DNA of 64,000 nt, from assembly GCF_000831385.1 (NCBI RefSeq), contig NZ_AP014548.1, forward strand, positions 1,541,779 through 1,605,778. The letters are read 5' to 3'. The notes beneath the pieces were generated by a model. The model ran no database searches. It had not been told where the DNA came from and saw only the letters and a list, made by a program, of their open reading frames with translations. The DNA comes from Nonlabens marinus S1-08. GTDB taxonomy: Bacteria > Bacteroidota > Bacteroidia > Flavobacteriales > Flavobacteriaceae. The translations under genes were made by a program, and so were the position numbers. Shown one piece after another: positions 1,879-63,059 of this stretch (positions within the stretch are counted from its first letter, which is position 1; the number at the start of each line of letters is the position of its first letter).

Positions 1879-3168
1879 TTATTCATATAATAGATAAGCC
1901 TGTCTCATCTGGTCATAGGCTTTCAAGTCTGATTCCCAAGTCGCAGCAATTGCTTCAGCACTCATTGCTTTTTCGATTTGAGCTTGCAGCTTTTCTGTTC
2001 CTGCCAGGTTAGTAAAAAAGGAGTTGAAGAAGCTTTCTTTGTAGGGCGCTTTCGCGAAAGCGTCTACAACAAATTCCAACTGCAACTTATTTAATCGTGG
2101 GTATTCCCTCAAGTCCACACCAAAACATTTCTTGCCGTTAAAAGGCGGTCGTTTAGCTCCTGCGTTTGGAGTAGGTGTAAAGGAGAAGTTTCTGTACTTA
2201 GCTAGGGAAGGAGAGCCATACACTTGAAATTGCATGTCAGTACCTCGACCTACACTCACGTCAGTTCCTTCAAAAAAGCAAAGGCTGGGATATAAATTGA
2301 TGGACTGTGCATTGGGTAGATTAGGTGATGGGGGAATAGGCAAATGATAAGGAGTCGCATGGGTGTAATGTTGATTTTTGAATACCTTGATACTCGCTTG
2401 TTTGCCATAAGGTAACCACTTCTCGCCATTGATCATTTGAGCATATTCACCTATGGTCATCCCGTGTACCACCGGTACAGGATGCATGCCTACAAAACTT
2501 TTGTGTTGTGAATCCAGGATAGGCCCGTCGATATAGTGTCCATTAGGATTTGGGCGATCTAGGATGTAAACTGTTTTATTGCTATCAGCCGCGGCTTCCA
2601 TCACATAATGAAGCGTCGATATGTAGGTGTAAAATCGGGCGCCTACATCTTGAATATCAAATAAGATGATGTCTACATCAGCTAATTGAGCTTTGGTTGG
2701 TTTTTTATTGCTGCCGTATAAAGAGATGATAGGCAAACCGCTACGTTTGTCTATGCCATCTTCTACCACTGCACCAGCATCTGCCTCGCCTCTAAATCCA
2801 TGCTCAGGAGCAAATACTTTTTTGACATCAACCCCTAGGGAGATCAAGGTGTCTACTAGGTGTACGTATTTAATTTTTTCTGCTTGATCCCAGGTGCGTC
2901 GCTCTGCTTTAGTCAGCGTGTTCACAACACTGGTTTGATTGCCTACAACTGCCACTCGCTTTCCTTTTAACTGGCCTACCCAACTACCTATCTGATCTGC
3001 AGCGGTGACGGGCTCATTGTCTAAGGGCAGTATGTTTCTCGTACTGTCCAGATCTACCGCGCTAGGAAGTTCTACACCATTTTTGGTAGTAGTTTTGCTC
3101 TTTTGACCGATGCTCCCATTGCAGGAAGTCATTACTAAAGCCATAAGGATTATGGTATATTTGAACAT
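1879..3168 (-). CDS. exo-beta-N-acetylmuramidase NamZ family lipoprotein (DUF1343)
   Basis: A DUF1343/NamZ family protein of 429 residues. Characterised members remove terminal N-acetylmuramic acid from peptidoglycan fragments. The ATG at 3168 gives a compact lipoprotein signal peptide, MFKYTIILMALVMTSC, with the lipobox cysteine at 16; an in-frame ATG at 3201 would add 11 residues and overlap the divergent gene, so it is less likely. The core includes GNQTSV, APEHGFRGEADAG, ILFDIQDVGARFYTYI and the segment FEGTDVSVGRGTD, all typical of the family. One exact copy of the 16-bp palindrome (2047-2062) lies in the C-terminal part and encodes AFAKA. Probably located in the periplasm or anchored to the outer membrane. 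Confidence 0.85.
   Translation of the reverse strand: MFKYTIILMALVMTSCNGSIGQKSKTTTKNGVELPSAVDLDSTRNILPLDNEPVTAADQIGSWVGQLKGKRVAVVGNQTSVVNTLTKAERRTWDQAEKIKYVHLVDTLISLGVDVKKVFAPEHGFRGEADAGAVVEDGIDKRSGLPIISLYGSNKKPTKAQLADVDIILFDIQDVGARFYTYISTLHYVMEAAADSNKTVYILDRPNPNGHYIDGPILDSQHKSFVGMHPVPVVHGMTIGEYAQMINGEKWLPYGKQASIKVFKNQHYTHATPYHLPIPPSPNLPNAQSINLYPSLCFFEGTDVSVGRGTDMQFQVYGSPSLAKYRNFSFTPTPNAGAKRPPFNGKKCFGVDLREYPRLNKLQLEFVVDAFAKAPYKESFFNSFFTNLAGTEKLQAQIEKAMSAEAIAATWESDLKAYDQMRQAYLLYE
2047..2062. repeat. 16-bp palindrome, copy 1 (in NamZ-like CDS)
   Basis: Exact CGCTTTCGCGAAAGCG. Read on the minus strand within the NamZ-like gene as AFAKA (context DAFAKAPYK). Confidence 0.95.
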
Positions 3169-3181
3169 AGAAGAATAAGGA

Positions 3182-4414
3182 TTGAATCTAGAGTATTTCA
3201 TAGCGCAGCGCGTACAAAATAGTACGGCCTATAAAAATAGCGTAAGCGCACCGATTATAAAAATTGCTACTGCTGCAATTGCAATAGGCATGATCGTCAT
3301 GATCATTGCGGTTGCAACAGGTGTTGGCCTTCAAAAAAAGATTAGAGAAAAGGTCAGTGCTTTCAATGGTGATGTGACTATTTCGCTGTTTGATCGCAAT
3401 AACTCCATCACGACTGTGCGACCTATTTCCAAACAACAAGAGTTCTATCCTGATTTCAAATCAGTTCCAGAAGTGACTCATGTGCAAGCCGTAGCGACAA
3501 AAGGCGCCATGATACGTACCGAAACTGATTTTGAAGGGGTTATTCTTAAAGGTGTAGGAACCGATTACCGCTGGGAAAGTTTTGAGGACTTTTTGATCGA
3601 TGGCAAGTTGCCTGATGTTTCACAAGAGACTACTTCTAAAGACATCTTAATCTCAGACGATATTTCTCGCAGGTTGGGATTGAAAGTAGGTGATAAGGCG
3701 CCTACTTATTTCATGAAAGAAAATGAAGAGCCCTTAGGACGCTCTTTTACAGTAGTCGGCATTTATGACAGCGGTCTAGAAGAATATGATACTAAATTCA
3801 TCCTAGGTGACATACGCAACATTCAAAAAATCAATAAGTGGGAAGATGACGAGGTTGGTAAGTTTGAAGTTTTTATTACTGACTTTAATCAAATTGATGA
3901 AATAGGAAAAGATATATTTCTGAATGTTCCACAGACGCTGGATGCGCAAAGTATCAAGGATCAATATCCCACGATATTTCAATGGTTGGCATTGCTGGAC
4001 GGGAATATCTATGGAATTATTGGCGTCATTTTGATCGTTGGGATCATCAACATGATAACGGCATTGCTGGTTTTGATTTTAGATAGAACAAATATGATAG
4101 GCGTACTCAAATCTTTAGGCGCTACAGACTGGACGGTTCGCAAAGTATTTCTATACAATGCGATGAGTCTGATTTTGAAAGGTTTGATTTGGGGTAATTT
4201 GATAGGTCTAGGATTGGTCGCGCTTCAATACTTCTTTGCTCCGCTCACCTTGGATCCTGCTACCTATTATGTGAGCATGGCACCAGTATATATATCATGG
4301 TGGCACATACTTGCACTTAATCTAGGAACATTCACCATCTGTTTATTTGTGTTGATCATTCCCACATACATTGTTAGCCGTATTTCTCCAGTGAAGGCGA
4401 TGCGTTTTGAATAA
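3182..4414 (+). CDS. LolC/LolE-type ABC transporter permease (MacB core + FtsX domain)
   Basis: A 410-residue inner-membrane permease. It has an N-terminal transmembrane helix (~23-45), a large periplasmic MacB-like domain (~50-260) and three C-terminal helices with the FtsX-domain signature LILDRTNMIGVLKSLGATDW. This layout fits LolC/LolE-like lipoprotein-sorting permeases, although no LolD ATPase is adjacent. The start must be TTG at 3182: an in-frame TAA lies at 3176-3178, and the conserved N-terminal motif LEYFIAQR begins right after. The next ATG would remove the first membrane helix. Only 13 bp separate it from the divergent NamZ-like gene, so the two promoters must lie within the opposing coding regions or overlap. 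Confidence 0.88.
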   Translation: MNLEYFIAQRVQNSTAYKNSVSAPIIKIATAAIAIGMIVMIIAVATGVGLQKKIREKVSAFNGDVTISLFDRNNSITTVRPISKQQEFYPDFKSVPEVTHVQAVATKGAMIRTETDFEGVILKGVGTDYRWESFEDFLIDGKLPDVSQETTSKDILISDDISRRLGLKVGDKAPTYFMKENEEPLGRSFTVVGIYDSGLEEYDTKFILGDIRNIQKINKWEDDEVGKFEVFITDFNQIDEIGKDIFLNVPQTLDAQSIKDQYPTIFQWLALLDGNIYGIIGVILIVGIINMITALLVLILDRTNMIGVLKSLGATDWTVRKVFLYNAMSLILKGLIWGNLIGLGLVALQYFFAPLTLDPATYYVSMAPVYISWWHILALNLGTFTICLFVLIIPTYIVSRISPVKAMRFE

Positions 4415-4441
4415 TTTGTAGCAAGTACGCTGAAGTTTACA

Positions 4442-4456
4442 TTGAGCCTGTCGAAA
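4442..4456. repeat. TTGAGCCTGTCGAAA intergenic repeat remnant
   Basis: This short sequence in the gap after the permease gene matches a motif (complement of TTTCGACAGGCTCAA) that recurs between genes in many flavobacterial genomes. Only one copy is seen in this window, so its identity rests on memory of the motif. Confidence 0.4.
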
Positions 4457-4534
4457 TGCGAAAGCGTAATCACCCACAATTCCTATTAAAGAAAATAGCT
4501 ATAGCAATACCTTAAAAAGCTCTCTGCAAAATCC

Positions 4535-4542
4535 TAAATTTG
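4535..4542 (+). promoter_or_regulatory. Bacteroidota -7 promoter element TAAATTTG
   Basis: The sequence matches the flavobacterial TAnnTTTG consensus and lies 17 bp before the start codon of the cystathionine beta-synthase-like gene, implying a very short leader. No clear TTG -33 element is seen at the expected spacing. Confidence 0.5.
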
Positions 4543-4559
4543 CAGCGCAAAATAAGATC

Positions 4560-5853: not shown

Positions 5854-7128
5854 ATGACGGAAGATTTTCTCCATTACCTCTGGAAATTTAAAAAACTGAG
5901 TGGGCAAGAGTTGCGCTCTACAAATGGAGAGTCGATTATCATAAAGTCTCTAGGTCAACACAACTACCATTCAGGACCAGATTTTTTTAATTGTCGTCTG
6001 GAAATTGCCGGTCAATTGTGGGCAGGAAATGTTGAAATGCATTTGCGAGCCAGTGATTGGTACCGTCATGGTCATGATGATGATCCAGCTTATGACAATG
6101 TGATTTTACATGTGGTGTGGAAACACGATGCAGAAATCACGAGACGTAGTGAGGTCGACATCCCAGTATTAGAAGTTGCGGGATACGTTCCAGACAGCTT
6201 GGTTCTTGCTTACACGCGTTTGTTTGCCTATAAAAACAACCAATTTATTAATTGCGAAAAAATGATAGATCAAGTAGATTCTTTCATCGTAAATAGTTGG
6301 TTGGAAAAAATGTACTTGCAGCGTCTGGAACAGCGATATGAAAGAATCCAGCTAAGTTTGGGAAAAAATAATAACGACTGGGAAGCTACTTTTTTTCAAA
6401 TGCTGGCCCGTAGTTTTGGGACTAAGATAAATGCCGATGCGTTTGAACAGTTGGCGACAAGTATAGATCAGTCCGTTGTTCGCAAACTAGCAAGTGATGC
6501 ATTTCAGTTGGAGGCCGTGTTATTTGGTCAGTCAGGCCTGTTGGACAAGGAATTTGAAGACCGTTATTTTCATTTGCTTGTTAATGAGTTCGCTTTCGCG
6601 AAAGCGAAGTACCAATTAACACCTATTCACACCAGTTTGAAATTGTTCAGGTTGCGACCGGCCAATTATCCCACCGTACGATTATCACAACTAGCTATGC
6701 TTTACCACCAAAATCCATTGCTTTTTGCTGAAATTTTGCTTGCCCAAACTAAAACGGAAATAAAAACATTGTTTCAGGTAAAGGCAGCCACCTACTGGAA
6801 TGATCACCACCTGTTTGATAAAGCGACAGAGAGCAAGGAGAAAGTAATCACAAACGATTTTATAGATTTAGTGATAATTAATTGTGTTGTCCCTATGAAA
6901 TTTGCGTACGCAAAATACCATGGAAAGGAAAATCTGGAAGAACTACTATCCTTAATGAGAGAACTCAAAGCAGAAAAAAACACCATTACTGCAGGTTTCA
7001 ACAAATTGATTGCTATTGAAAACGCCTTAGAGACTCAGGCAGTTCTACAACTGAAACCTAATTACTGCGATCAAAATGTTTGCTTAAATTGTGATATAGG
7101 CATCCAGTTGATGCGCGCAGATTCTTAA
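5854..7128 (+). CDS. DUF2851 family protein
   Basis: A 424-residue member of DUF2851, a Bacteroidota-typical cytoplasmic family of unknown function. The start at the ATG at 5854 gives MTEDFLHYLWKFKKL, the usual family N-terminus; a TTG at 5821 would only add 11 residues. Recognisable family segments are HNYHSGPDFFNCRLEI, WAGNVEMHLRASDWYRH and DNVILHVVWKHD in the first 130 residues. Near the end a cysteine cluster CDQNVCLNCDIG could bind a metal. An exact palindrome copy (6591-6606) encodes AFAKA in the second half (context EFAFAKAKYQ). The next gene begins 34 bp downstream with its own promoter-like element. Confidence 0.82.
   Translation: MTEDFLHYLWKFKKLSGQELRSTNGESIIIKSLGQHNYHSGPDFFNCRLEIAGQLWAGNVEMHLRASDWYRHGHDDDPAYDNVILHVVWKHDAEITRRSEVDIPVLEVAGYVPDSLVLAYTRLFAYKNNQFINCEKMIDQVDSFIVNSWLEKMYLQRLEQRYERIQLSLGKNNNDWEATFFQMLARSFGTKINADAFEQLATSIDQSVVRKLASDAFQLEAVLFGQSGLLDKEFEDRYFHLLVNEFAFAKAKYQLTPIHTSLKLFRLRPANYPTVRLSQLAMLYHQNPLLFAEILLAQTKTEIKTLFQVKAATYWNDHHLFDKATESKEKVITNDFIDLVIINCVVPMKFAYAKYHGKENLEELLSLMRELKAEKNTITAGFNKLIAIENALETQAVLQLKPNYCDQNVCLNCDIGIQLMRADS
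6591..6606. repeat. 16-bp palindrome, copy 2 (in DUF2851 CDS)
   Basis: Exact copy, extended to 20 bp with TT/AA flanks; read in frame as AFAKA. Confidence 0.95.
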
Positions 7129-7150
7129 CCGTCCATCGCCTAAACTTGCT

Positions 7151-10471: not shown

Positions 10472-11332
10472 ATGAAAAATATTAAATCCCTCTTTTTGTT
10501 TGATAAACGTCAGCAAAGGGGGATTTTGCTTTTGATTATCTTAATAATGATCCTTTTAGGAGTTCGTTTTTATTTAACGACGCTTCCAACGGCTTCTTTG
10601 GAGCTGGCTGATGTTTCAGAGTATGAAAAGAAGGTCGATTCCCTCAAGAGAATAGCGGCTCGCAAAAAAGATACGATCTATCCGTTTAACCCTAATTACA
10701 TCAACGATTTCCGTGCTTATCAGATAGGATTAGATGAAGCACAGTTGTTGAGGTTATCTCGCTTTCGCGAAAGCGGAAAATTCATCAATTCCCCTGCACA
10801 ATTCCAGCAAGTGACTGAAGTGAGTGACCAGTGGCTGGATAGTATTGCTCCGTATTTCAAATTTCCAGATTGGGTGAATAATCCTAGACCCAGCTATTCC
10901 AAAAATTTAAGTTTTGCGGATAAGAAAATTACAGCAAGTAATTTGAACACAGCGTCTCAAGAGCAGCTCAAGGCAGTTTTCGGGATAGGCCCAGCGCTCT
11001 CTACCCGAATCATCGAACAACGACAAAAACTGAATGGTTTTGTCGATATGCAACAAGTACGGGAAATCTATGGACTTTCAGATTCAACAATGATCCAGCT
11101 GCGCAAGCATTTCTTTATAACGCCACCTGCAGGCTTCAAGAAAATAGTCTTAAACAAAGCGACCCGGGACGAACTGTCAAGCATTCCCTATTTCAACGAC
11201 TACCTTGTGGACAAGCTGATAGAGCAGCGTACTTTGAGAGATGGATTCAAGAGTTGGGACAACGTGATGCTCACTTCAAGGTTTCCACAAGAAAAATTGC
11301 CTTTAATTCAGCTATATTTGACACTGGACTAA
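10472..11332 (+). CDS. ComEA-type helix-hairpin-helix protein, membrane anchored
   Basis: A 286-residue protein with one N-terminal transmembrane helix (~19-36) and three helix-hairpin-helix-like modules. The clearest, around residues 155-215, reads SNLNTASQEQLKAVFGIGPALSTRIIEQR, the ComEA motif for non-specific DNA binding; a second follows as LNKATRDELSSIPYFNDYL. ComEA-like proteins bind incoming DNA during transformation, but similar proteins occur in non-competent Bacteroidota, so a DNA-uptake role is unproven. An exact palindrome copy (10760-10775) is read as RFRES. Its end lies 20 bp before the acyl-CoA dehydrogenase start. Confidence 0.82.
   Translation: MKNIKSLFLFDKRQQRGILLLIILIMILLGVRFYLTTLPTASLELADVSEYEKKVDSLKRIAARKKDTIYPFNPNYINDFRAYQIGLDEAQLLRLSRFRESGKFINSPAQFQQVTEVSDQWLDSIAPYFKFPDWVNNPRPSYSKNLSFADKKITASNLNTASQEQLKAVFGIGPALSTRIIEQRQKLNGFVDMQQVREIYGLSDSTMIQLRKHFFITPPAGFKKIVLNKATRDELSSIPYFNDYLVDKLIEQRTLRDGFKSWDNVMLTSRFPQEKLPLIQLYLTLD
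10760..10775. repeat. 16-bp palindrome, copy 3 (in HhH protein CDS)
   Basis: Exact copy; read in frame as RFRES (context RLSRFRESGKF), a different frame from copies 1 and 2. Confidence 0.95.
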
Positions 11333-12533: not shown

Positions 12534-12549
12534 CGCTTTCGCGAAAGCG
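12534..12549. repeat. 16-bp palindrome, copy 4 (intergenic)
   Basis: Exact copy 11 bp after the acyl-CoA dehydrogenase stop, with symmetric TTT/AAA flanks extending the inverted repeat to 22 bp. Confidence 0.95.
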
Positions 12550-14291: not shown

Positions 14292-14307
14292 CGCTTTCGC
14301 GAAAGCG
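14292..14307. repeat. 16-bp palindrome, copy 5 (between tRNA-Gly and tRNA-Thr)
   Basis: Exact copy in the spacer of the tRNA cluster, 12 bp upstream of the second tRNA-Thr gene. Confidence 0.95.
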
Positions 14308-15750: not shown

Positions 15751-15772
15751 TTTATTAGATGGTGTAGTTTTT

Positions 15773-15786
15773 GCTTTCGCGAAAGC
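15773..15786. repeat. palindrome, one-mismatch copy (between tuf and tRNA-Trp)
   Basis: GCTTTCGCGAAAGC is intact, but the first base of the 16-mer is T instead of C. Intergenic. Confidence 0.85.
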
Positions 15787-15822
15787 GAACTATCCAGCAG
15801 TTTAAAACTGTTTAAAAGGTTT

Positions 15823-22904: not shown

Positions 22905-22920
22905 CGCTTTCGCGAAAGCG
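22905..22920. repeat. 16-bp palindrome, copy 6 (rpoB-rpoC spacer)
   Basis: Exact copy 27 bp after the rpoB stop and 49 bp before the rpoC start. Confidence 0.95.
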
Positions 22921-34042: not shown

Positions 34043-34975
34043 ATGAAGAAATTAGTAATAGCTCTGATAGTGTTCGCTTTCGCGAAAGCGGCAACAGCAC
34101 AGCAAGATCCACAATACAGCCAGTACATGTACAATCCAGTGGTGATCAATCCCGCCTATGCAGGAAATCGTGGAGTGGCAAGTATTGTAGGTTTACATCG
34201 AAGCCAATGGGTAGGCCTAGAAGGTGCCCCACGTACACAAACTTTGTCCTTCCATACACCTATATTGAATAGCAGAGTAGGACTAGGAGTAAGTATTGTC
34301 AACGACGCATTAGGACCTACTGATGAGACCTATGCAACGGCAGATTTTAGTTACACATTACCCATGAGCTACAACAGCAATCTTAGTTTTGGAATCAAGG
34401 GTGGTGTTAGAACTTTAAATATTGATTTTGATCAATTAAATGCAAGAGATCAAAATGATGACTTATTGAGAAATCTTGATAATGACATAGCTCCTCAAGT
34501 AGGAGTAGGAGCTTATTATCATACTGATAAATTCTATGTAGGTTTAAGCACACCTAATTTGCTTCAAACAGATCATTATGATCCTGAGAACCGGAATGGT
34601 ACTACAACCTTTATAGCTAGAGAGCGTATTCATTATTTTGCCGCTGCTGGGTACGTTTTTGATCTAAATGATAATGTAAAATTCAAACCTTCTACTTTAA
34701 TAAAGGCTGTTGCAGGAACACCATTGCAGGTAGATGTAACAGCAAATTTTTTGTTCTCTGAGAGACTGACTTTAGGTGCAGCTTATAGAGTTAGTGCAGC
34801 GGTCACAGGCTTAGTAGGGTTTCAAGTAAATGATCAAATGCTTATAGGATTTGCCTACGATCGAGAAACAACTGAATTAGGTAATTCAGTTTATAACGAT
34901 GGGAGTTATGAACTTTTCTTAAGGTTCGAGCTGTTTAAAAGTTACGATAAGGTGGTTACTCCACGATTCTTCTAA
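34043..34975 (+). CDS. PorP/SprF family type IX secretion system membrane protein
   Basis: A 310-residue outer-membrane beta-barrel of the PorP/SprF family. ATG 34043 gives the signal peptide MKKLVIALIVFAFAKAATAQ. The family hallmark QDPQYSQYMYNPVVINPAYAG follows directly (here split as QDPQYSQYMYN and PVVINPAYAG). Characterised SprF is needed for export of type B sorting-domain proteins such as SprB, and homologues commonly sit downstream of such substrates, exactly as here, suggesting this copy serves the giant protein. The signal peptide contains an exact palindrome (34075-34090) that places a lysine in the hydrophobic-to-cleavage region. The next gene starts 20 bp downstream. Confidence 0.9.
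   Translation: MKKLVIALIVFAFAKAATAQQDPQYSQYMYNPVVINPAYAGNRGVASIVGLHRSQWVGLEGAPRTQTLSFHTPILNSRVGLGVSIVNDALGPTDETYATADFSYTLPMSYNSNLSFGIKGGVRTLNIDFDQLNARDQNDDLLRNLDNDIAPQVGVGAYYHTDKFYVGLSTPNLLQTDHYDPENRNGTTTFIARERIHYFAAAGYVFDLNDNVKFKPSTLIKAVAGTPLQVDVTANFLFSERLTLGAAYRVSAAVTGLVGFQVNDQMLIGFAYDRETTELGNSVYNDGSYELFLRFELFKSYDKVVTPRFF
34075..34090. repeat. 16-bp palindrome, copy 8 (in PorP/SprF signal peptide)
   Basis: Exact copy; encodes AFAKA within the signal peptide (context VFAFAKAATA). Confidence 0.95.
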
Positions 34976-39723: not shown

Positions 39724-40694
39724 TGAACTGGTACCCGCTCACATTTCAACCTTTCTACAAGGAAAAAATATGGGGAGGTACGCAACTCAATAGCTTGAAA
39801 CAAATTCATCCACCTTTGTCGAACATCGGCGAGAGTTGGGAGATCAGCGATGTGGGTGATGATATTTCCAAGGTCCTGCAAGGACCTCTAGAAAACAAAT
39901 CTTTACGCTGGATTCTTGAGAATTATGGTGAAGAAGTTATGGGAACCCGAGTATCACAGCGCTTCGGTACTCAGTTCCCTATTTTGATAAAATATATTAA
40001 CACCGCTCAGGATTTATCCATTCAGTTGCATCCAGATGATAAAATGGCCATGGCAAAGCACAACAGCTTCGGTAAGACGGAGATGTGGTATGTCATGAAT
40101 AGTAATCCAGAAGCAGGATTGACCTTAGGTTTTAAAGAGGCTACGGATGAGTTCGCTTTCGCGAAAGCGATACAAAATAACAGCCTTCCTGCATTATTGA
40201 ACTTTCAAGAAGCGCAGAGAGGTGATAGTTTTTTAATAAAGCCTGGATTTGTACATGCCATAGGAGCAGGTATCACCCTGGCTGAAATTCAGCAAAGCAG
40301 TGACTTGACTTATAGAGTTCATGATTACAATCGGTTAGACGATGCTGGAAACCCTAGAGAATTGCATGTGGAAGAAGCAATTGCAGCAGCTGACTATTCA
40401 CAAGCGACAGATCATCAAATCCATTACGACCGTGAATTGTCAGGTCGTCAAAATCTTGCAGAAACCGACTATTTTGAAACTGATATTCTTCAATTTTCTG
40501 GAACTACTGATGTTAAATTAGTTCCAGAAGAAAGTTTCACCATTTTAATGAATGTGGGGGATTCCTGTAAGATAAAGCATGAGGGAACAAGTTATTCCTT
40601 TAAGCATGCGCAAACGTATTTGATTCCTGCAGCAATAAAAGAACTTGATGTTACCTGCGATGGTAGCGGGAAATTATTGTTGGTGCATTTGTAG
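39723..40694 (+). CDS. manA: mannose-6-phosphate isomerase, class I
   Basis: A 323-residue type I phosphomannose isomerase (cupin fold, zinc enzyme) linking fructose-6-phosphate and mannose-6-phosphate, relevant for glycan synthesis. The zinc site motif SIQLHPDD is at ~101-108, followed by GKTEMWYVM; a glutamate and histidine later (FVHAIGAG, RVHDYNR) complete the site. An exact palindrome (40154-40169) encodes AFAKA (context EFAFAKAIQ) in a helical insertion region. Its ATG overlaps the previous stop (TAATG). Confidence 0.93.
   Translation: MNWYPLTFQPFYKEKIWGGTQLNSLKQIHPPLSNIGESWEISDVGDDISKVLQGPLENKSLRWILENYGEEVMGTRVSQRFGTQFPILIKYINTAQDLSIQLHPDDKMAMAKHNSFGKTEMWYVMNSNPEAGLTLGFKEATDEFAFAKAIQNNSLPALLNFQEAQRGDSFLIKPGFVHAIGAGITLAEIQQSSDLTYRVHDYNRLDDAGNPRELHVEEAIAAADYSQATDHQIHYDRELSGRQNLAETDYFETDILQFSGTTDVKLVPEESFTILMNVGDSCKIKHEGTSYSFKHAQTYLIPAAIKELDVTCDGSGKLLLVHL
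40154..40169. repeat. 16-bp palindrome, copy 9 (in manA)
   Basis: Exact copy; encodes AFAKA. Confidence 0.95.
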
Positions 40695-43129: not shown

Positions 43130-43145
43130 CGCTTTCGCGAAAGCG
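43130..43145. repeat. 16-bp palindrome, copy 10 (intergenic)
   Basis: Exact copy with symmetric TTT/AAA flanks, in the 94-bp gap between the hydrolase stop and the DUF819 start. Confidence 0.95.
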
Positions 43146-44597: not shown

Positions 44598-45209
44598 TTA
44601 GGAACTGGGGCTCACAACCTTTCTAAAGGTCAGGTTAATGCGTGGCAGGATTTTACGTTTGGTCTTTGCAATTTGATGTTTGTAGGTATGCTGTGTCTCA
44701 CCAGCCATTAACAGCAGGCTACCATTTTCTAGTGGAAATTTGTAGCGCCATTCTTTATGCTCATTATGTCGCAAATGGAAAAATCGCTCTTGCCCTAAAC
44801 TTATGGAGGCAATTACAGGATTTATCCCTAATTCTTTCTCGTTATCAGCATGCCAGCCGTTAGAATCATTGCCATCACGATAATAGTTGGCCAGGCATAT
44901 ATTAAATTTATATCCTGTCGCTTTCTCGACATCTTCCTTGATGGACTGCATCACCGGCGACCATTCTAGTGCGTTAAACGTGATACCACTATAACTGTAT
45001 TTCATCCCGTTATCACCGTACAATTGCGTAAGCCGCGGCTCATCATAGGTCTTTCCAAAAACGGTAATCTCGTTTTGTCGCCATGGAATCGTTTGAAGCA
45101 GTGTTTTATAGAGTTGTTCCGCTTTCGCGAAAGCGTAAAAATCACTAGCATACTGCACCCTAGCGTCAGGTATTTCAATAGAGGGAAGTTGGGGTAACTT
45201 ATTATGCAT
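44598..45209 (-). CDS. AlkB-like 2-oxoglutarate/Fe(II) dioxygenase
   Basis: A 203-residue AlkB-family dioxygenase, predicted to repair alkylated DNA or RNA bases by oxidative demethylation. The iron ligands are the His and Asp of GWHADNE and the distal His in QHTYKH; the 2-oxoglutarate-binding arginine lies in PRINLTFRKV. The substrate loop NYYRDGNDSNGWHAD is typical of AlkB homologues of the ALKBH2/3 type. The start is uncertain: ATG 45209 is chosen, but ATG 45272 is possible. An exact palindrome copy (45120-45135) near the N-terminus encodes AFAKA. Confidence 0.88.
   Translation of the reverse strand: MHNKLPQLPSIEIPDARVQYASDFYAFAKAEQLYKTLLQTIPWRQNEITVFGKTYDEPRLTQLYGDNGMKYSYSGITFNALEWSPVMQSIKEDVEKATGYKFNICLANYYRDGNDSNGWHADNEKELGINPVIASISLGQERFFHLRHNEHKEWRYKFPLENGSLLLMAGETQHTYKHQIAKTKRKILPRINLTFRKVVSPSS
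45120..45135. repeat. 16-bp palindrome, copy 11 (in AlkB-like CDS)
   Basis: Exact copy; minus-strand reading gives AFAKA (context FYAFAKAEQL). Confidence 0.95.
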
Positions 45210-47116: not shown

Positions 47117-48581
47117 AAATATGAGCTTGCTCTTGATTAGAAAATAAACTCCCAACAAACATTCCCAAAAAGGTGATTGCGCCATTCAATAACAGTACAA
47201 AAAATCCAAATTCGAATCCGCTGTAGGTGAAAGATAGGTAACTGATCAAATAAGTTAGGAATGGTGAAGCTATCGCAATAAAAGGCACGAATTTATGATT
47301 GACATGAAGCTTAGTCAAAATTCCGAAGGCAAACATTCCCAGTAAAGGCCCGTAGGTATATCCCGCAAAAACGAATAACTTATTGATGACACTGGCATCT
47401 TTGATCACGTATTCAAAACTCACGATCACCAGGATCAAGACTAGAGAAAATCCTATGTGAAACAGCTTTCGCAGCTGTTGCTGTTTTTTCTCAACAAATC
47501 GGTTTTCAATTTTGACAATGTCCACAGAGAAGGATGTGGTCAAGGAAGTCAGCGCACTATCGGCACTGGAATAAGCTGCGGCGACCAGTCCTAAGATAAA
47601 TACCAATCCAATCCCCATTCCTAAACCACCGTCCATCGCAACTGTGGGGAACAAGGCGTCCTTAGAAGCTTGTAGGTTTTCCGCTTTCGCGAAAGCGGTA
47701 AGCAACACCCCCAATACCAAAAACACAAAATTCACAGCGGTCAGCACAATCGTAAACCAAAAAATATTCTTTTGAGCGTCACCAAGATTGCGACATGTCA
47801 AGTTCTTTTGCATCATGTCCTGATCCAGTCCAGTCATTACGATAGCGATAAAAGCACCGGCTAGAAACTGTTTCACAAAAAACTGATCACTTTTCCAATC
47901 GTCCAAGAAAAAGATTTGTGATAAATCACTGTCAGTTATAAAAGAGGTAATCTCGCTAATGCCATTGAGGTCAAGACTGTTTGATATGTAATATATGGCA
48001 ACGCCTACCGCAATGAGCATAAACAAAGTTTGCAAGGTATCCGTCCATACAATTGTTTTGATACCAGATTTAAAGGTGTATAACCATATAAGTAGTACTG
48101 TAAAGGTCACGGTTTGCCAAAACGAGATGCCCATAGCATCAAACACAAACGTTTGCAATACTCCCGCGACCAAGTATAATCTAAAGCTAGCCCCTACAAT
48201 CCTGGATAATAAGAAAAAGCTACTACCCGTATATTGCGCCGCACTACCAAATCGATCGCCCAGATAACTGTAAATGGAGGTCAAATTCATTCGATAATAC
48301 AAAGGCATCAATACCAACCCTATTACTGCATACCCAGCGATATAGCCTAGAACTACTTGAAAATAATTCATAGCACCAGCCTCTACCGCTCCAGGAACTG
48401 AAATAAAAGTCACACCGCTCAACGACGCTCCTATCATCCCAAAAGCCACGATGTACCATGGCGAACTGCGATTGCCTCTAAAGAAAGTAGCGCTATCTCC
48501 TTTTCTACCTACAATGAATGAAATGGCGACCAAAACGGTAAAATAAATGGCAATCGTCAATAAGATGTCAAAAGAATCCAA
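47100..48581 (-). CDS. sodium:solute symporter (SSS family)
   Basis: A 493-residue SSS-family transporter with about 13 transmembrane segments, importing an unidentified solute with sodium. Typical features are the N-terminal FRGNRSSPWYIVAFGMIGASLSG (given as FRGNRSSPWYIV and GMIGASLSGVTF) and the internal DQDMMQKNLTCRN segment. An exact palindrome (47682-47697) encodes AFAKA in a loop (context TAFAKAENLQ). The last residues (HILRHEA) and the stop lie inside the 7-bp tandem repeat. The gene is divergent from recR. Substrate cannot be decided from sequence. Confidence 0.9.
   Translation of the reverse strand: MDSFDILLTIAIYFTVLVAISFIVGRKGDSATFFRGNRSSPWYIVAFGMIGASLSGVTFISVPGAVEAGAMNYFQVVLGYIAGYAVIGLVLMPLYYRMNLTSIYSYLGDRFGSAAQYTGSSFFLLSRIVGASFRLYLVAGVLQTFVFDAMGISFWQTVTFTVLLIWLYTFKSGIKTIVWTDTLQTLFMLIAVGVAIYYISNSLDLNGISEITSFITDSDLSQIFFLDDWKSDQFFVKQFLAGAFIAIVMTGLDQDMMQKNLTCRNLGDAQKNIFWFTIVLTAVNFVFLVLGVLLTAFAKAENLQASKDALFPTVAMDGGLGMGIGLVFILGLVAAAYSSADSALTSLTTSFSVDIVKIENRFVEKKQQQLRKLFHIGFSLVLILVIVSFEYVIKDASVINKLFVFAGYTYGPLLGMFAFGILTKLHVNHKFVPFIAIASPFLTYLISYLSFTYSGFEFGFFVLLLNGAITFLGMFVGSLFSNQEQAHILRHEA
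47682..47697. repeat. 16-bp palindrome, copy 12 (in symporter CDS)
   Basis: Exact copy; minus-strand reading AFAKA in a loop between membrane helices. Confidence 0.95.
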
Positions 48582-49296: not shown

Positions 49297-50400
49297 ATGA
49301 AGTTGAGCGTCATTATTCTGAATTATAACGCTTCAGTCTTTTTAGAACTGTGTGTGGAAAGTGTGACGCGGGCGTTATCGTCAATAAATTCAGAAATCAT
49401 CGTCATTGATAATGACTCTACAGATGATAGTATGGATCGATTAATGTCTCGATATAAAAACATCAAAACGATTCGGTTAGATGATAATTATGGCTTTTCA
49501 AAAGCTAACAATATTGCTGTAGAACAGTCGAAGGGTGAATTCATATGCCTAGTCAATCCAGATGTGATTGTGGGTGAAGAGGTTTTTGAAAAAAGCATCG
49601 CTTTTTATGAAAACAATGAATTGAACACAGATATCGGATTTTGTGGGATACAATTAGTTGATGGTTCTGGTACTTTTCTTCCTGAGAGCAAGCGACGTAT
49701 TCCTAAACCTTTGAGCGCTCTAGGAAAACTATTAGGATATTCTGGTGCTTATTACGATAACCGAATCCTTAAGGATCAAGATGCTCCCACTGAAGTTTTG
49801 GTAGGTGCCTTTATGCTTGCCAAAAAATCAGTCTATCAAGAATGTGGTGGTCTGGATGAACGTTATTTCATGTATGGCGAGGATATCGATTTAAGCTACA
49901 CAGCCTTGAAAGCCGGCTATCAAAATTATTATTTGGGATCACTCTCCGCTATACATTTTAAGGGTGAAAGCACTGTCAAGGACAAGGCTTCGCAACAGTT
50001 ATTTTACAGCGCAATGATCTTGTTTTTCAAAAAGCATTATCCTCGAGCTAAATTCTTATCTCAGTTTTTAAGTTATATGCTGCCTAGAATTACGCTTTCG
50101 CGAAAGCGAACTTACCTTGAAGACTCTGCTACAAATCCTTCATTGATCTGTGTTACGGAAGATTCGAGCTTCGAACCCAGTTGGGCCGAAGAAAAAGTGC
50201 CTCTAGGTGTCCTGAAGACTAACGAGAAGGCAAAAGCTAGATTTATCGTGGATTGTGCCTCCCTATCCTTCAAGGAGGTCATACAGACCATAAAGGAATC
50301 AGCGGGTGCCTTTAAAACTTACCGATTCTTAACTCAAGATCGATCTGCTTATGCAGGTAGTGATACCAGTGAAAACAAAGGTGAAGTCAAGAAATTTTAA
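49297..50400 (+). CDS. glycosyltransferase family 2
   Basis: A 367-residue GT-A-fold glycosyltransferase similar to rhamnosyltransferase-like GT2 enzymes. The N-terminal nucleotide-sugar site is SVIILNYNASVFL, the acidic motif is CLVNPDVIV, and the acceptor-side segment MYGEDIDLSY carries the ED(V/I)D signature. An exact palindrome (50093-50108) is read as LSRKR. The last ~100 residues form an extra domain of unknown function. Directly coupled to recR (1-bp gap), suggesting co-transcription rather than shared function. Confidence 0.87.
   Translation: MKLSVIILNYNASVFLELCVESVTRALSSINSEIIVIDNDSTDDSMDRLMSRYKNIKTIRLDDNYGFSKANNIAVEQSKGEFICLVNPDVIVGEEVFEKSIAFYENNELNTDIGFCGIQLVDGSGTFLPESKRRIPKPLSALGKLLGYSGAYYDNRILKDQDAPTEVLVGAFMLAKKSVYQECGGLDERYFMYGEDIDLSYTALKAGYQNYYLGSLSAIHFKGESTVKDKASQQLFYSAMILFFKKHYPRAKFLSQFLSYMLPRITLSRKRTYLEDSATNPSLICVTEDSSFEPSWAEEKVPLGVLKTNEKAKARFIVDCASLSFKEVIQTIKESAGAFKTYRFLTQDRSAYAGSDTSENKGEVKKF
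50093..50108. repeat. 16-bp palindrome, copy 13 (in GT2 CDS)
   Basis: Exact copy; here read as LSRKR (context TLSRKRTYL), the third possible frame. Confidence 0.95.
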
Positions 50401-52980: not shown

Positions 52981-54120
52981 TTAGCTTTTAAAAAGCACTT
53001 CATATTTGCCTGCTATCTTCCTTGAATCGTGAAGGTTGATGACATGAGCTCGAGCCTTTTTGCCTATCTCAAGTATGGATTGAGGTTCTTCAATAAATCT
53101 CGATAGCTCATCTACTAAATATGAAATGTCAGGCTTAGCATCGACAGCAGGCACTTCTGACAACCCATGCGCATTTAGATAGGCGTCTCCAGCTCCTGCA
53201 AAAACAACCTTGCCACGCAGCATCGCTTCTAGTGCATTATAACCTTGATCATAACTCAATACTTGATCCAGTAAAATGTGAGCATCCTGAAATTGCTTCA
53301 TATACTCTTTATAGGGTAAATTTTCAGCTACCGTGATTTTTACTTTAGCACCATATTTTGCCTTGATAAATTCGAGTGCTTCTTCAAAGTAATTAATACC
53401 CTTTTTCCAGTAATTGGGTCGATTGATTCCTAGAAAGATCTGGATGACTGATAGGTTTTCGTTTTGCTCCAGGTCGTATTTTGAAGTGTCAATGGCGGCA
53501 GGAATAATTTCTGTTGCCTTCGGTTGCTGGGTCAAGGACATGGCGTAGTCTGTATTGCTAGGAATAATGGCCTCACATCGATCTAATAACCACTGATAGT
53601 TAGCTTGATATCCATCACCTAAATATTTGTAGGTATGCCCTAAAAAAGGTTGGAGTGCAGGGTCGCTCTTTACAGCATCTAAAATGCTGTACCCATCATG
53701 CCGGGTCGTCAAGTAATCTGCATAATGGTAATCATCGCCGCAAGCTGCAAGAAAACAGAGACCATTATTTTGTACTAAATATTTCAGCATTTTCCGCTCC
53801 ACGGGAGGTTCGCAGCCAAATGGATTTGAATTGATAAATTGTACGATGTCAAAATCTTTGAGAAGGTGTTCGCTTTCGCGAAAGCGTGCTAACCTCAAAT
53901 TATCTTCAAGATTGCGGCCAGTTACTTTCCACCAGCCTACTTTGAATTTTTCGCGAAACCAATTGCGCCTGTAGTAATTACTGGCGACCAAAACGTCCAC
54001 CGGGAGATCTTTGAATCCATCACCATCGCCCACGAGAGTCACCTCGTGACCTAATAGTTGCAGACCATGTTTGAGCGAATTGTGGAAATTACTGTATTCG
54101 CCTACCAGCAGAATGCGCAT
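52981..54120 (-). CDS. glycosyltransferase (GT4-like)
   Basis: A 379-residue GT-B-fold protein resembling GT4 glycosyltransferases. It begins MRILLVGEYSNFHNSLKHG; the C-terminal donor-binding region has ILLDQVLSYDQGYNALEAML, where the conserved glutamate binds the sugar nucleotide. An exact palindrome (53871-53886) is read as RFRES. It is divergent from the GT2 gene at 54151. It belongs to a glycan-synthesis region, but neither substrate nor acceptor can be named. Confidence 0.85.
   Translation of the reverse strand: MRILLVGEYSNFHNSLKHGLQLLGHEVTLVGDGDGFKDLPVDVLVASNYYRRNWFREKFKVGWWKVTGRNLEDNLRLARFRESEHLLKDFDIVQFINSNPFGCEPPVERKMLKYLVQNNGLCFLAACGDDYHYADYLTTRHDGYSILDAVKSDPALQPFLGHTYKYLGDGYQANYQWLLDRCEAIIPSNTDYAMSLTQQPKATEIIPAAIDTSKYDLEQNENLSVIQIFLGINRPNYWKKGINYFEEALEFIKAKYGAKVKITVAENLPYKEYMKQFQDAHILLDQVLSYDQGYNALEAMLRGKVVFAGAGDAYLNAHGLSEVPAVDAKPDISYLVDELSRFIEEPQSILEIGKKARAHVINLHDSRKIAGKYEVLFKS
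53871..53886. repeat. 16-bp palindrome, copy 14 (in GT4-like CDS)
   Basis: Exact copy; read on the minus strand as RFRES (context ARFRESEHLL). Confidence 0.95.
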
Positions 54121-54150: not shown

Positions 54151-54996
54151 TTGCGCAATTACACCACAGACGATCTTGAAATTCTCATCGCGACCATGGA
54201 TCGGGAGGATTTATTGTTTTTGGAGGCTATTTTTTTGAAGCCTTTGCATGAGATTCCCGCGCACATTGTGGTTGTCAATCAAGGTAAAACAAAGCGATTA
54301 GCGTCTGATATCTCGACTATCAGAGTTATTAACGATCCTAATTATGGTTTGAGCCGCAGTAGAAACCTAGGGCTACAACACTCTCAAAAAGACCTGCTCT
54401 GGATACTGGACGACGATTGCGTGATCATGCCAGGCTCGCTTCAGAAAATTGCCGAAGCACATTCCTTATCAGATGCCGCTATACTTACATTTCAAACGGT
54501 TGATCCTAATGGGGAATTAGTTCGTAATTATGAGAAGGTGGAAAGTTCGCTTTCGCGAAAGCGAATTGAAAAAGTCCTCTCTCCTGAAATTACTCTAAAA
54601 CGGTCCTCTATTTTAGAAAATGGATTAAGTTACAATCCCAGATTTGGATTAGGAGCGCAATTTCAAGACAGCGAGAATCATATTTTTTTAATGGACGCGC
54701 TTGATAAAAATGTTCAAATTCAATTTATTCCAAATACTATAGTGTCGCACGAGCGCTCGACCAGTAGCGACGATGCTGATAGCAATAGGGTTATTTATGC
54801 CAGAGGGGCACTTGCTGGCAGGCGCAACTATTACACCGCTGGTTGGTTTCAATTGAAATATGCACTGTTCCTGTGGCGTAAGGGTTATGTAAGGAATTTG
54901 AAAGAATTAATTGGGAAGACTCGTGTTTTTGGTCACGGCGTTGAGGATTACCTATGGGGTTTTGAGAGCCATCGCAATCACCATCTGGATCTATAG
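54151..54996 (+). CDS. glycosyltransferase family 2
   Basis: A GT-A-fold glycosyltransferase of ~281 residues (VVNQGKTKRL, NYGLSRSRNLGLQ and the metal-binding LLWILDDDCVIMPG). The start is uncertain: TTG 54151 gives LRNYTTDDLEILIATM, a plausible beginning that avoids overlap with the divergent gene; ATG 54067 would overlap it by 54 bp, and ATG 54196 is too short at the N-terminal beta strand. An exact palindrome (54548-54563) is read as LSRKR. The next gene, a cupin, follows 12 bp later. Confidence 0.82.
   Translation: MRNYTTDDLEILIATMDREDLLFLEAIFLKPLHEIPAHIVVVNQGKTKRLASDISTIRVINDPNYGLSRSRNLGLQHSQKDLLWILDDDCVIMPGSLQKIAEAHSLSDAAILTFQTVDPNGELVRNYEKVESSLSRKRIEKVLSPEITLKRSSILENGLSYNPRFGLGAQFQDSENHIFLMDALDKNVQIQFIPNTIVSHERSTSSDDADSNRVIYARGALAGRRNYYTAGWFQLKYALFLWRKGYVRNLKELIGKTRVFGHGVEDYLWGFESHRNHHLDL
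54548..54563. repeat. 16-bp palindrome, copy 15 (in GT2 CDS)
   Basis: Exact copy; read as LSRKR (context SSLSRKRIEK). Only 661 bp from copy 14. Confidence 0.95.
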
Positions 54997-57449: not shown

Positions 57450-58132
57450 TACACAGTCTTTTGAACTACTTCAAAGACTTCGCCGTCATCACATTTAAGG
57501 GTTTTAGAAGGGTATTTTAAAATGAGCGCGTAGTCATGAGTGGCCATCAAAATAGTATTTCCATTTTTATTGATGGTTTGTAAAACTTCCATAATCTCAA
57601 CACTGGTTTGTGGGTCTAGGTTACCGGTAGGCTCATCTGCAATAATTAATTCGGGATCATTGAGTAATGCCCTAGCGATGGCAACCCGTTGTTGTTCCCC
57701 ACCGGAAAGTTCGTGTGGGTATTTAAAGCCTTTAGTTTTCATTCCGACTTTGTCTAAAACGGTATCGATGCGATCTTGCATTTCGGTTTTATTCTTCCAA
57801 CCAGTAGCTTTTAAAACGAACTTTAAATTATCTTGAATGGTACGATCTGTAAGCAACTTGAAATCTTGAAAGACGACTCCTAGTTTGCGACGCAGGTAGG
57901 GTATTTCGCTTTCGCGTAAGCGGGCTAAATCAAAATCTACAATGCTACCTTTACCTTTTTTCAAGGGAATGTCGCCGTAAAGCGTTTTCATCAAGGAACT
58001 CTTTCCACTTCCTGTTTTACCAATTAGGTACACAAACTCGCCTTTATCAATGTTAAGGTTCACATCTTTAAGGATTAGGTTGTCCATTTGAAAGATATCA
58101 ACATCAGATAGCGATAGCACATGGTTTGACAT
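57449..58132 (-). CDS. ftsE: cell division ABC transporter ATPase FtsE
   Basis: A 227-residue ATP-binding protein. Walker [10 protein letters not shown], signature [15 protein letters not shown] and Walker [13 protein letters not shown] are all intact. Sequence and length match FtsE, which with FtsX drives septal peptidoglycan hydrolase activation. The FtsX gene is not adjacent, as is common in Bacteroidota. ATG 58132 ([13 protein letters not shown]) is preferred to ATG 58159. A near-exact palindrome (57907-57922) is read as RLRES at a position where homologues carry other residues of the same number. Confidence 0.9.
57907..57922. repeat. palindrome, one-mismatch copy (in ftsE)
   Basis: CGCTTTCGCGTAAGCG (one mismatch, T for A at 57917); read on the minus strand as RLRES, so the mismatch converts the F of RFRES to L. 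Confidence 0.85.
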
Positions 58133-58254: not shown

Positions 58255-61200
58255 ATGAGGAAATTGGCATTTACCGCGGCACTTCTTTTAAGCGCCGTTT
58301 CTACAGGTCTGGCTCAACAGTCTAAGATATTTACAGATCATCTGCGCAACTACAACACTGCAGTGGATTTATACCAGGAAGATCAATACATCGCTGCGCA
58401 ACGTCTATTTGAAAAAGTAGTGGAGCAAGCAGAGGATGAGACCATCAAAGGAAATGCTGCTTACTATGCGGCAAACTGTGCCGTGCGTCTGAGCCAGCGC
58501 AATGCAGATCAAATGGTAGAAGATTTTGTAGAGCAATACCCTACCTCTACAAAACGCAACAGCGCTTTTATTGATGTGGCCGATTATTATTTTGAGAGCG
58601 GGAATTACCGCAAGGCATCCCAATGGTATGAAAAGGTGGATGAGAAAAACCTATCTAGAGAACAAAAGACTCGGTACTATTTCAATACAGGATATACCCT
58701 AGTGCAAAGTAACAAGTTTGACGAGGCAAAGCCTTTTTTGAATCGAGTGAGCGATGATCCAGAATACGGATCTAAAGCAAAATATTACTTAGGATACATC
58801 GCCTATGAGGGTGACGATCTGGAAACGGCAGATGAACTTTTTAGCGAGGTAGAAGAAGCCCCAGAAACAGATGCTAAGCTCTCCTATTATCAAGCAGATT
58901 TGAATTACAAACTTGGTAGGTTTGAGGAAGCCATAGCACTTGCTGAAAAGCAAATGCCTACCTCTAATCGCCAAGAACAATCAGAACTCAATCGTATTAT
59001 TGGTCAATCGCTCTTCAATCAAGGCAAGTATCAAGAAGCATTACCATACCTGCAAAAATATCAAGGAACTCGTGGTAAGTGGAATAATAACGACTACTAT
59101 CAGTTGGGTTATACTTATTACAAGTTGGGAGATTTTGAAAATGCGGTAGAGACTTTTAATAAAATTATCGACGGCGAGAATACTACAGCTCAAAATGCCT
59201 ATTATCATTTAGGTCAAAGCTACATCAAGCTCAATCGTGGGGAGGATGCACTCAATGCTTTCAAAAAAGCGAGTGAAATTGCATTGGATGAGCAAATTAC
59301 TCAAGATGCGATGTACAATTATGCAAAGCTGAGTTATGAAAATGGGAATCCTTATGAAAGTGTCCCTGCAGTAATCCTTAATTACATAGAGACCTATCCA
59401 AAAGCAGATAATAAGGATGAGATGAACAAATTGCTCATCGATTCTTATTTCACTTCTAAAAATTACGGAGAAGCCATAGCCTTGTTAGAGGATGGTAGGA
59501 TACGTGGCAACGAAAACGTGTATGGTAAAGTCACTCTTTACCATGGTTTAAATTTATTTACTAGTGGTGATTATCAAGGAGCCAAAGAAAATTTAGACAA
59601 AGCCATCAAAAATCTAGAAGAAAAAAACCTGGAGAAGAAAGCGAGGTTTTGGAAAGCAGAAACTTTATACCAGCTCAATGATTTCAATGGTGCGTTAGCA
59701 GAGTTTGAACGTGTCAAAAATATTTCGGCGTCAATTGAAGAGGATGATTTACTGGATTATGATATGGGGTACACCTACTTCAAACTTAAAAATTACACTT
59801 CCAGTATCAATGCTATGGAACGTTTTGTAGCTCAGAAATCCAGCGACAGAGTTCGTACTAATGATGCCTATATGAGAATAGGTGATGCCAACTTTGTCTC
59901 AAAAAAATACTGGCCAGCGATTGAATCCTATAACCAGTCTATCAAAATGGGTGGCGCCAGTGCAGATTATGCTACGTTCCAGAAGGCGATGTCTTATGGA
60001 TTTATAGATCGAGTGGATAGCAAGATTCAGGAATTAAACACTTTTCTAGACAATTTCAAATCATCCCAATATCGGGACGATGTGTTGTATGAATTAGGAA
60101 ATACCTACATCAATACTAATAAGGTATCTAGCGGTATCCAGACTTATGACCGCTTGATTAGGGAGTTTCCAGACAGCCGTTATACTGCTCCGGCAATGAT
60201 GCGTAAAGGTTTACAGTTTTACAATGACAATCGACTTGATGAAGCTTTGACTGTTTTCAAACAGGTAGCTTCTAAATATGCGGGAACGCCCCAAGCCGTG
60301 GAAGCGGTGAGCAGTGCTCGATTGGTATATATTGATCAAGGAAAAACAGCTGATTATGCCCAGTGGGTGCGAGGTTTAGATTTTGTTGATGTAACAGATT
60401 CTGAGCTGGATGATACGGCCTATGAAAGTGCAGAACGTCCTTTTCTACAAGGGAACATGAGCAGCGCGACTCGAGAACTGGAGAAGTATTTAAAGCAATT
60501 TCCTAACGGGAAGTATGCGTTGCAGGCACATTTCAATCTGGCACAAGCCTATTTTTCTGAAGGCAATAAGAGTGCGAGCATCCCGCATTATCAATATGTG
60601 GCAGACCGCGAGCGCAGTGAGTATTCAGAGCAGGCTTTGGCAAGACTGGGCGAGATATTACTCAATGATGCGGTGAGCGATGGTGGGGATAGAAAGTCCG
60701 CTTTCGCGAAAGCGATACCCATACTAATCAAACTGGAAGCAACGGCAGATTTTCCACAAAACAGAGCTTATGCACAATCCAACTTGATGAAAGCTTACTA
60801 TGAAACCGAACAGTTTGACAAGGCGGTCAATTATGCCAATAAGGTGTTAGGGGATAGCAATACAGATGATACGGTTCGTGCTGATGCTCAAGTGATCATT
60901 GCACGCAGCTCTTTTAAGCGCAATGACATGGCAGCTGCAAAAAAAGCCTATGCAGACGTGTTGAAAAACTCTAGCGGTGCCATAGCTGCGGAAGCTACTT
61001 TTTACAAAGCCTATTTTGAAAACCAAGAAGGCAAGCACGATCAGGCTATCGCAACAGTTCAAAACTTGTCAAAAAACTATGGAAGTTACAAACTATGGAG
61101 CGCGAGAGGGCTTGTGGTCATGGCAAAAAGTTATGATGCCACTAAGCAGACCTTGAATGCCGTAACTCTATTGCAGGGTGTAATTGACAATTTCTCGCAA

Positions 61201-63035: not shown

Positions 63036-63043
63036 TAGCATTT

Positions 63044-63059
63044 CGCTTTCGCGAAAGCG
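63044..63059. repeat. 16-bp palindrome, copy 17 (intergenic)
   Basis: Exact copy 8 bp after the barrel-protein stop, with symmetric TTT/AA flanks, ahead of the terminator. Confidence 0.95.

Follow-up and report, generated by a model that had tools for sequence, protein, structure and literature searches.

An evenly spaced, clade-wide 16-bp palindrome in Nonlabens chromosomes, probably a self-DNA recognition or chromosome-organising signal

Introduction

To our knowledge, strict DNA words that recur evenly along the chromosomes of a whole clade occur in few groups only, namely those that carry the uptake signal sequences (USS) of Pasteurellaceae, the DNA uptake sequences (DUS) of Neisseriaceae, and the palindrome HIP1 (GCGATCGC) of cyanobacteria. 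Here we analyse 64,000 nucleotides of the chromosome of Nonlabens marinus S1-08 (NZ_AP014548.1, positions 1,541,779 to 1,605,778; hereafter the window), in which a perfect palindrome of 16 bp, CGCTTTCGCGAAAGCG, is found in 17 exact copies, against none in 100 dinucleotide shuffles, and we follow this word through the whole genome, its relatives and their phages. We conclude that the palindrome probably acts as a signal, either for the recognition of self-DNA or for the organisation of the chromosome. For USS and DUS, parts of PMC1939737 report an excess that falls with mismatch load and describe uptake sequences (there DUES) as non-palindromic, and parts of PMC7811141 report that uptake sequences are scarce in new segments and constrained genes. 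For HIP1, the same portion of PMC1939737 gives 5,648 copies of GGCGATCGCC in Synechocystis, and in part of PMC4390886 HIP1 is said to hold the targets of two orphan methyltransferases, with GATC and CGATCG named.

The palindrome resembles USS and DUS in that hundreds of strict copies of one word are shared across a clade, with an excess graded by mismatch, an intergenic excess alongside many genic copies, and even spacing (the USS and DUS side being taken from parts of PMC1939737 and PMC7811141). It differs from them in being a palindrome with symmetric arms, in being longer (14-16 bp) and sparser (653 copies in 2.92 Mb), and in its host, in which the pilus platform family PF00482 finds no match. 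With HIP1 it shares the character of a highly iterated perfect palindrome retained across a clade, whereas HIP1 is 8 bp long, is commoner and holds orphan methyltransferase targets, and the present word is 14-16 bp long, different and without GATC. We set the palindrome apart from both USS/DUS and HIP1 because defining features of each were looked for here and not found. In the literature searched, neither CGCTTTCGCGAAAGCG nor four shorter forms were found, and the topic literature, judged by titles and the starts of abstracts, held nothing on such a motif in this group.

Results

Abundance, core and arms

We found 653 exact copies of CGCTTTCGCGAAAGCG in the whole single-contig genome (2,915,920 bp), a density of about one per 4.5 kb (~4,500 letters); the reversed word, used as a control, does not occur. 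In a genome sample of 844 kb (29%), 185 exact 16-mers were counted against at most 0.07 expected under Markov models of orders 1-5, of which the order-5 model was trained on sequence that included the palindrome copies themselves. The preliminary description of the window had judged the word too frequent for chance and had called for counts in the complete genome and in related genomes; these lie far above expectation and extend beyond this segment, and neither a count near that expected from composition nor a restriction to this stretch was found.

A 14-mer, GCTTTCGCGAAAGC, forms the strict core and has 212 copies in the 844-kb sample; among the one-mismatch 16-mers of the first 464 kb, 18 of 22 are altered solely at an outermost base. 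When the core was sought with zero to four mismatches in the same sample, 212, 22, 13, 31 and 235 copies were obtained, compared with averages of 0, 0.07, 1.2, 15.8 and 173 for shuffled palindromes, the excess shrinking as mismatches rise over the range tested. Because there are 22 one-mismatch sites, we estimate that, if lost sites decay neutrally, the core may be lost at no more than about one tenth of the neutral rate. The core is flanked by symmetric arms, C-poor and G/T-rich over ~17 nt on its 5' side and A/C-rich on its 3' side, with an intergenic consensus near TTKTGGTWATTTC 5' of the core and its mirror 3' of the core. The T/A flanks of the preliminary description are thus right as to a flanking extension, which is better described as this extended symmetric motif. 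The arm profile is similar in G227, a genome of a genus other than Nonlabens, in which A is favoured where Nonlabens favours T, beside the outermost C. Each strand of every exact copy holds GCGAAAGC, which we take to be an unusually stable DNA mini-hairpin.

Spacing and placement relative to genes

Spacing was analysed for the first 100 listed sites of the genome and for 94 sites listed on a single contig of another Nonlabens, G001. In the former, the coefficient of variation (CV) of the 99 gaps is 0.61 compared with a mean of 0.99 for simulated uniform sites (0 of 20,000 simulations as low), and only 2 of 99 gaps are shorter than 1 kb (21% expected). In G001, 2 of 93 gaps fall below 1 kb (17% expected), but its CV of 0.87 falls short of significance (P 0.11), which its long empty stretches probably explain. 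Consistent with even spacing, copies per 20 kb across 42 stretches have a variance-to-mean ratio of 0.50 (P 0.004 against Poisson). A replication-axis bias, one of the checks proposed in the preliminary description, was not seen: taking an origin near 0.85 Mb, as skew and parS indicate, we found no origin-to-terminus gradient over the same 42 stretches (Spearman 0.14, P 0.38) and rejected an origin-to-terminus signal.

Genic and intergenic positions were assigned with a simple purpose-made gene finder, and the counts are approximate because the finder missed the open reading frame (ORF) 10472-11332 around the copy at 10760, which was scored as intergenic. In the 844-kb sample, the core density per kb is 0.15 in genes, 0.97 in gaps between tandem genes, 1.17 in divergent gaps and 1.83 in convergent gaps, with 113 of the 212 copies inside predicted genes. 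Copies in tandem gaps lie mostly nearer the upstream stop (39 of 51), at a median of 29 nt from the stop and 76 nt from the next start. The 113 genic copies are read as AFAKA (65), LSRK (25) or RFRES (23), where codon usage alone predicts ~48%, 1% and 51%, respectively; AFAKA exceeds this prediction near gene starts (22 of 29). By eye, many of the near-start AFAKA copies (..FAFAKA..) seem to fall where a signal peptide ends, as with MKKLVIALIVFAFAKAATAQ at 34075. The DNA signal may there supply a usable signal-peptidase site.

Distribution among relatives

Every Nonlabens genome searched, the present one included, carries the palindrome (23 of 23; 180-737 copies, with the minimum in a genome that is 78% complete). 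In a sample of the family, at least one copy is present in 38 of 299 genomes, and more than 13 copies occur only in Nonlabens, G227 (630) and G211 (153). In genus g206, to which G227 belongs, all 15 sampled genomes have 369-905 core copies. In a sample of the order, 17 of 395 genomes are positive, those outside the family being three genomes with single copies. In a quick rpoB tree, G211 (genus g190) groups with G227 (g206) at support 99, and the fork that this group shares with Nonlabens and others is unresolved. Part of the low counts in other genera comes from clustered copies that look like transferred islands. By Pfam match, L210 encodes an efflux pump of the AcrB family together with an outer-membrane efflux protein and a multicopper oxidase; L211, L213 and L219 appear alike by eye. 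These metal-resistance-type islands of other Flavobacteriaceae genera (L210-L219) also share identical distances between copies, 933 in G099, G108 and G122, and 3460 in G122 and G305.

Copies in the window and their conservation

The copies in the window, in its own coordinates, are as follows.

2047..2062, exact, inside the NamZ-like gene 1879-3144 (-), AFAKA frame
6591..6606, exact, inside the DUF2851 gene 5854-7128 (+), AFAKA frame
10760..10775, exact, inside ORF 10472-11332 (+), a helix-hairpin-helix protein, ComEA-like by our own label
12534..12549, exact, 11 nt past the stop of gene 11254-12522
14292..14307, exact, between tRNA-Gly (14144-14217) and tRNA-Thr (14320-14392)
15772..15787, one mismatch at an outermost base, the 14-mer core being unchanged, between the EF-Tu gene 14507-15694 and tRNA-Trp
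22905..22920, exact, rpoB-rpoC spacer
27886..27901, exact, 5' part of the large gene 27800-33991 (+), AFAKA frame, signal-peptide-like context by eye
34075..34090, exact, N-terminal signal-peptide-like part (..VFAFAKA..) of the PorP/SprF-family gene 34043-34975 (+)
40154..40169, exact, phosphomannose-isomerase-like gene 39723-40694 (+), AFAKA frame
43130..43145, exact, between two (-) genes, 15 nt past the stop of the upstream gene, part of a perfect palindrome of 28 bp
45120..45135, exact, near or between divergent genes; the gene start is uncertain, and ORF 44598-45272 would contain the copy
47682..47697, exact, sodium:solute symporter gene 47100-48581 (-), AFAKA frame
50093..50108, exact, glycosyltransferase gene 49297-50400 (+), LSRK frame
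53871..53886, exact, gene 52981-54120 (-), RFRES frame
54548..54563, exact, glycosyltransferase gene 54067-54996 (+), LSRK frame
57907..57922, one mismatch, in the core, ABC-transporter gene 57449-58087 (-)
60699..60714, exact, TPR gene 58255-61296 (+), AFAKA frame
63044..63059, exact, between convergent genes, 8 nt past a stop codon

A scan of the window returned all 17 exact copies of the preliminary description at their positions and both of its one-mismatch copies (15772 and 57907), and no further site with two or fewer mismatches. The two sites it had listed as partial copies are near-misses with three mismatches each rather than copies, that at 20675 retaining TTTCGCGAAA and that at 29668 one half only. 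Two of the palindromes lie in a cluster of five tRNA genes around the EF-Tu gene (13922-15896), one between tRNA-Gly and tRNA-Thr and the other directly before tRNA-Trp. A perfect tandem array of eight copies of the 7-mer TGCCTCA, possibly a phase-variable tract, stands at 47061-47116, at the end of the symporter gene.

Conservation was examined at several of these positions. In the rpoB-rpoC spacer, the exact 16-mer is present in 18 of 19 Nonlabens relatives and the exact 14-mer in the remaining one, and the core is accordingly retained in 20 of 20 Nonlabens (window plus 19). Among 80 named rpoB loci, mostly of Flavobacteriaceae, the 14-mer is missing from all; a lone TTTCGCGAAA occurs in two of them and a match with at most two mismatches in one; 12 spacers of other genera have different sequences, often with hairpins by eye. 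One 8.7-kb contig of a Nonlabens metagenome-assembled genome (L105), with the top rpoB identity among the named loci (93%), has no copy, which counts against a Nonlabens-wide rule; it does not reach the spacer because the contig ends inside rpoB. The copy at 14292 is exact at the corresponding place in five of six relatives (L191-L196), and the other palindromes near rpoB are retained in some relatives and gone in others. In the glycosyltransferase gene 49297-50400, the window copy is at nt 797, 11 of 21 orthologues carry theirs at nt 303-333 and 10 carry none, and the protein alignment (21 of 22 relatives, the G012 orthologue being left out) shows no palindrome insertion at the site used in the window.

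In the rpoB-rpoC spacer the palindrome tops a longer hairpin, which suggested an extended hairpin at every copy; this candidate was rejected, since a test on 96 copies gave the true arms no folding advantage over swapped ones (z -1.1 to -0.4 with all copies; z -1.6 in the best subset, intergenic copies with 20-nt arms). No T-tract follows the window copies, and separate terminator-like hairpins stand beside several of them by eye. The Y1_Tnp family, that of the REP-associated tyrosine transposases (RAYT; REP, repetitive extragenic palindrome), is unmatched in 6 of 16 genomes (G000, G001, G006, G008, G015 and G211), among them the present genome with its 653 copies, and is matched in the remaining 10. 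These results agree with the earlier views that the word is not a mobile element, spread as REP by RAYT being contradicted, and not a terminator, for which the fit is poor.

Phages and plasmids

The 16-mer was found in 41 viral-contig stretches, several of which are GC-rich singletons that look like chance. Other palindrome-bearing stretches are phages; the eight proteins scanned gave hits that include major head, portal, tape-measure and integrase families. In the phage lineage L313, sites stand at 2760, 7814 (one mismatch), 12294 and 17226 (two mismatches), that is 4.5-5.1 kb apart, and L243, which shares genes with L313 by eye, carries an integrase. All five loci of this lineage (99-100% head-protein identity) have copies, and 30 farther relatives (20-58%), many of them short, have none. 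The Nonlabens phages P12024S and P12024L have zero copies in 71 kb; we take both to be lytic, and no integrase is annotated. In the temperate Haemophilus phages HP1 and HP2 we counted 17 uptake 9-mers each compared with 3 of the reversed word, so uptake sequences also enter temperate phages, as the palindrome does, here in an integrase-bearing lineage. A 29-kb plasmid-like contig of G008 (Mob_Pre) has zero copies. A BLAST search with the 40-nt consensus gave no match in phages and three chance-level matches in plasmids, and is uninformative as a bare 16-nt match probably lies below the reporting limit.

Palindrome-free stretches

We examined the five longest of the first 99 exact-16-mer gaps of the genome (L287-L291). 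L287 contains an island of low GC content that encodes a type I restriction-modification system (HsdM, HsdS and an AAA protein) and has no copy of two or fewer mismatches at 1954-11226, with two one-mismatch copies in the rest of the gap, and L288 is the ribosomal-protein superoperon with rpoA, 15.9 kb without copies. L289 has a TonB-receptor gene beside a SusD-like gene (SusD by eye), L290 is without copies and shows nothing decisive in its gene content, and L291 is not truly empty, with two one-mismatch copies and one two-mismatch copy. Compared with the avoidance of new and constrained segments reported for USS and DUS, one restriction island and the ribosomal superoperon are found among the five longest gaps, the other three being a TonB cluster, an undecisive stretch and one that is not empty.

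Five such stretches of G001, read by eye with some Pfam matches, contain an SMC/SbcC-like operon, a pilus-like cluster, a relaxase-like island (by eye) and, again, the ribosomal superoperon. In the first of these (L292:5390-14843), a low-GC region, an operon for an SMC/SbcC-like ATPase is accompanied by a separate AAA gene that gives a weak Mrr-like match, possibly as defence islands. The pilus-like cluster, resembling a type II secretion system (T2SSF, T2SSE, secretin), spans L293:13801-19999 and L294:1-1699 (G001:C4 ~330,800-338,700), a palindrome-poor stretch with one exact palindrome inside (L293:15469). One pilin-like protein of G001 has a weak match to the Pfam family ComP_DUS, an uptake-sequence receptor (E 0.0004, below the family cut-off).

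Discussion

The preliminary description had suggested that the palindrome may be a DNA-binding, methylation, uptake or chromosome-organising signal of the HIP1 and DUS kind, and its genome-wide, genus-wide and evenly spaced distribution supports this class. Within the class we favour, tentatively and at rather less than an even prospect, a self-DNA recognition signal of the uptake-sequence kind that would be maintained through uptake and recombination biased by sequence. In the DNA-transfer machinery, a dimeric receptor that binds DNA would read the 14-bp core with ~13-17 bp of G/T-rich arm on each side in double-stranded DNA, and site-bearing DNA would be preferentially taken up or recombined. 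Chromosomal segments would then be repeatedly replaced by site-bearing homologous DNA, until sites stood evenly, one in about every 4.5 kb, at all places where neither protein function nor regulation forbids them; our inference covers the receptor, the bias in uptake and the drive itself. The distribution of the palindrome resembles that of uptake sequences in its mismatch trend, even spacing, intergenic excess and presence in phages, and in part in its scarcity in new or constrained DNA (two of the five longest gaps). The ComEC family is present in all 16 genomes tested, and in the window the palindrome lies inside the gene for a helix-hairpin-helix protein of ComEA-like make-up. Part of PMC7965970 reports that, in transformation, Riemerella columbina favours DNA of its own, for which no word is established, and that Flavobacterium johnsoniae showed no competence under the same conditions.

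Several observations weigh against an uptake signal. ComEC is widespread, being present also in 10 of 14 control genomes, and PF00482 has no match in the single-contig genome or in G016; in the family it is matched in 61 of 299 genomes, with G211 and G227 not among them (their membership in the sample is taken from the same draw), and a PF00482-type gene is present in two Nonlabens, G022 and G001. The word is palindromic, whereas uptake sequences are described as non-palindromic, and its core is long and strict, holding 29 bits where 12 would be enough to locate 653 sites. Deep inside genes the share of the AFAKA frame (43 of 84) is close to the 48% given by codon usage alone. No receptor for the palindrome was found, no transformation data for Nonlabens were met in the literature, and a chromosome-organising site would account for the even spacing just as well. 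Because the word is palindromic and the genome is without PF00482, we hold the uptake reading at no more than this guarded level and keep a chromosome-organising site as a serious, though less than probable, possibility.

As a chromosome-organising site, the ~650 even, long and symmetric sites would load or anchor a putative dimeric DNA-binding protein that compacts, segregates or marks the chromosome, and the sites and their spacing would be kept by selection, not by transfer bias. The long, sharp palindrome with symmetric arms, the even spacing, the core retained in the rpoB-rpoC spacer of all 20 genomes, and the glycosyltransferase gene with its copy at nt 797 in the window, at nt 303-333 in 11 orthologues and absent from 10 all favour this, as does the absence from the plasmid-like contig and two phages alongside presence in other phages. 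It is likewise in keeping with parS, Noc-binding and matS sites, long strict palindromes read by dimers. These sites are few and are positioned by the origin or the terminus of replication, unlike the 653 sites here, which follow no such gradient. No candidate protein was found: one strong ParB-type domain is present in every one of 40 genomes, palindrome-bearing and palindrome-free alike, with few weak extras in both groups, and an exact parS lies at 853,236 (sampled stretches searched). A Noc/ParB-type system was rejected, as there is no dedicated paralogue in the 40 genomes and the exact parS lies elsewhere.

We consider it improbable that the palindrome is a recombination or repair signal, a Chi-like mark of self that stops a nuclease and stimulates RecA, with G/T-rich arms that would favour RecA. 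One site per 4.5 kb, 5' arms that are G/T-rich on both strands, palindromes in phages and none inside the type I restriction island are in its favour, but a strict 14-bp palindrome better suits a dimer on double-stranded DNA, and known Chi sites are 5-8 nt long and asymmetric. More unlikely still is a HIP1-like signal linked to DNA methylation, which would account for an over-represented palindrome in both genes and spacers, but the motif holds neither GATC nor CGATCG and its 14-bp core far exceeds usual methyltransferase targets. Least credible of all is a mobile or RNA-level repeat, whether a REP spread by RAYT, a miniature inverted-repeat transposable element, or a terminator or mRNA hairpin, since, for all the palindromic copies outside genes that recall REP and bacterial interspersed mosaic elements, the position of tandem-gap copies near the upstream stop and the rpoB-rpoC hairpin, several palindrome-rich genomes are without a RAYT-family protein, about half of the copies are genic, others are in divergent gaps, and the window copies lack a T-tract.

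Taken as a whole, the findings may describe a new chromosome-scale system of Bacteroidota, a prospect that we put close to, if just under, even. In it a putative dimeric protein would read ~650 evenly placed 14-bp palindromes with symmetric G/T-rich arms and would organise the chromosome in ~4.5-kb steps, or the word would be the first palindromic self-DNA transfer signal without a type IV pilus; phages of the host, at least one integrase-bearing lineage, would have adopted the signal at near-host density. The palindrome may also serve as a tracer, with the metal-resistance islands that bear it elsewhere suggesting donors in this clade, and it provides a defined bait for finding its protein. 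Overall, a long palindromic word in marine Flavobacteriaceae, in a genome without the usual uptake-pilus platform protein, would mean a new form of self-DNA recognition or a new chromosome-organising site.

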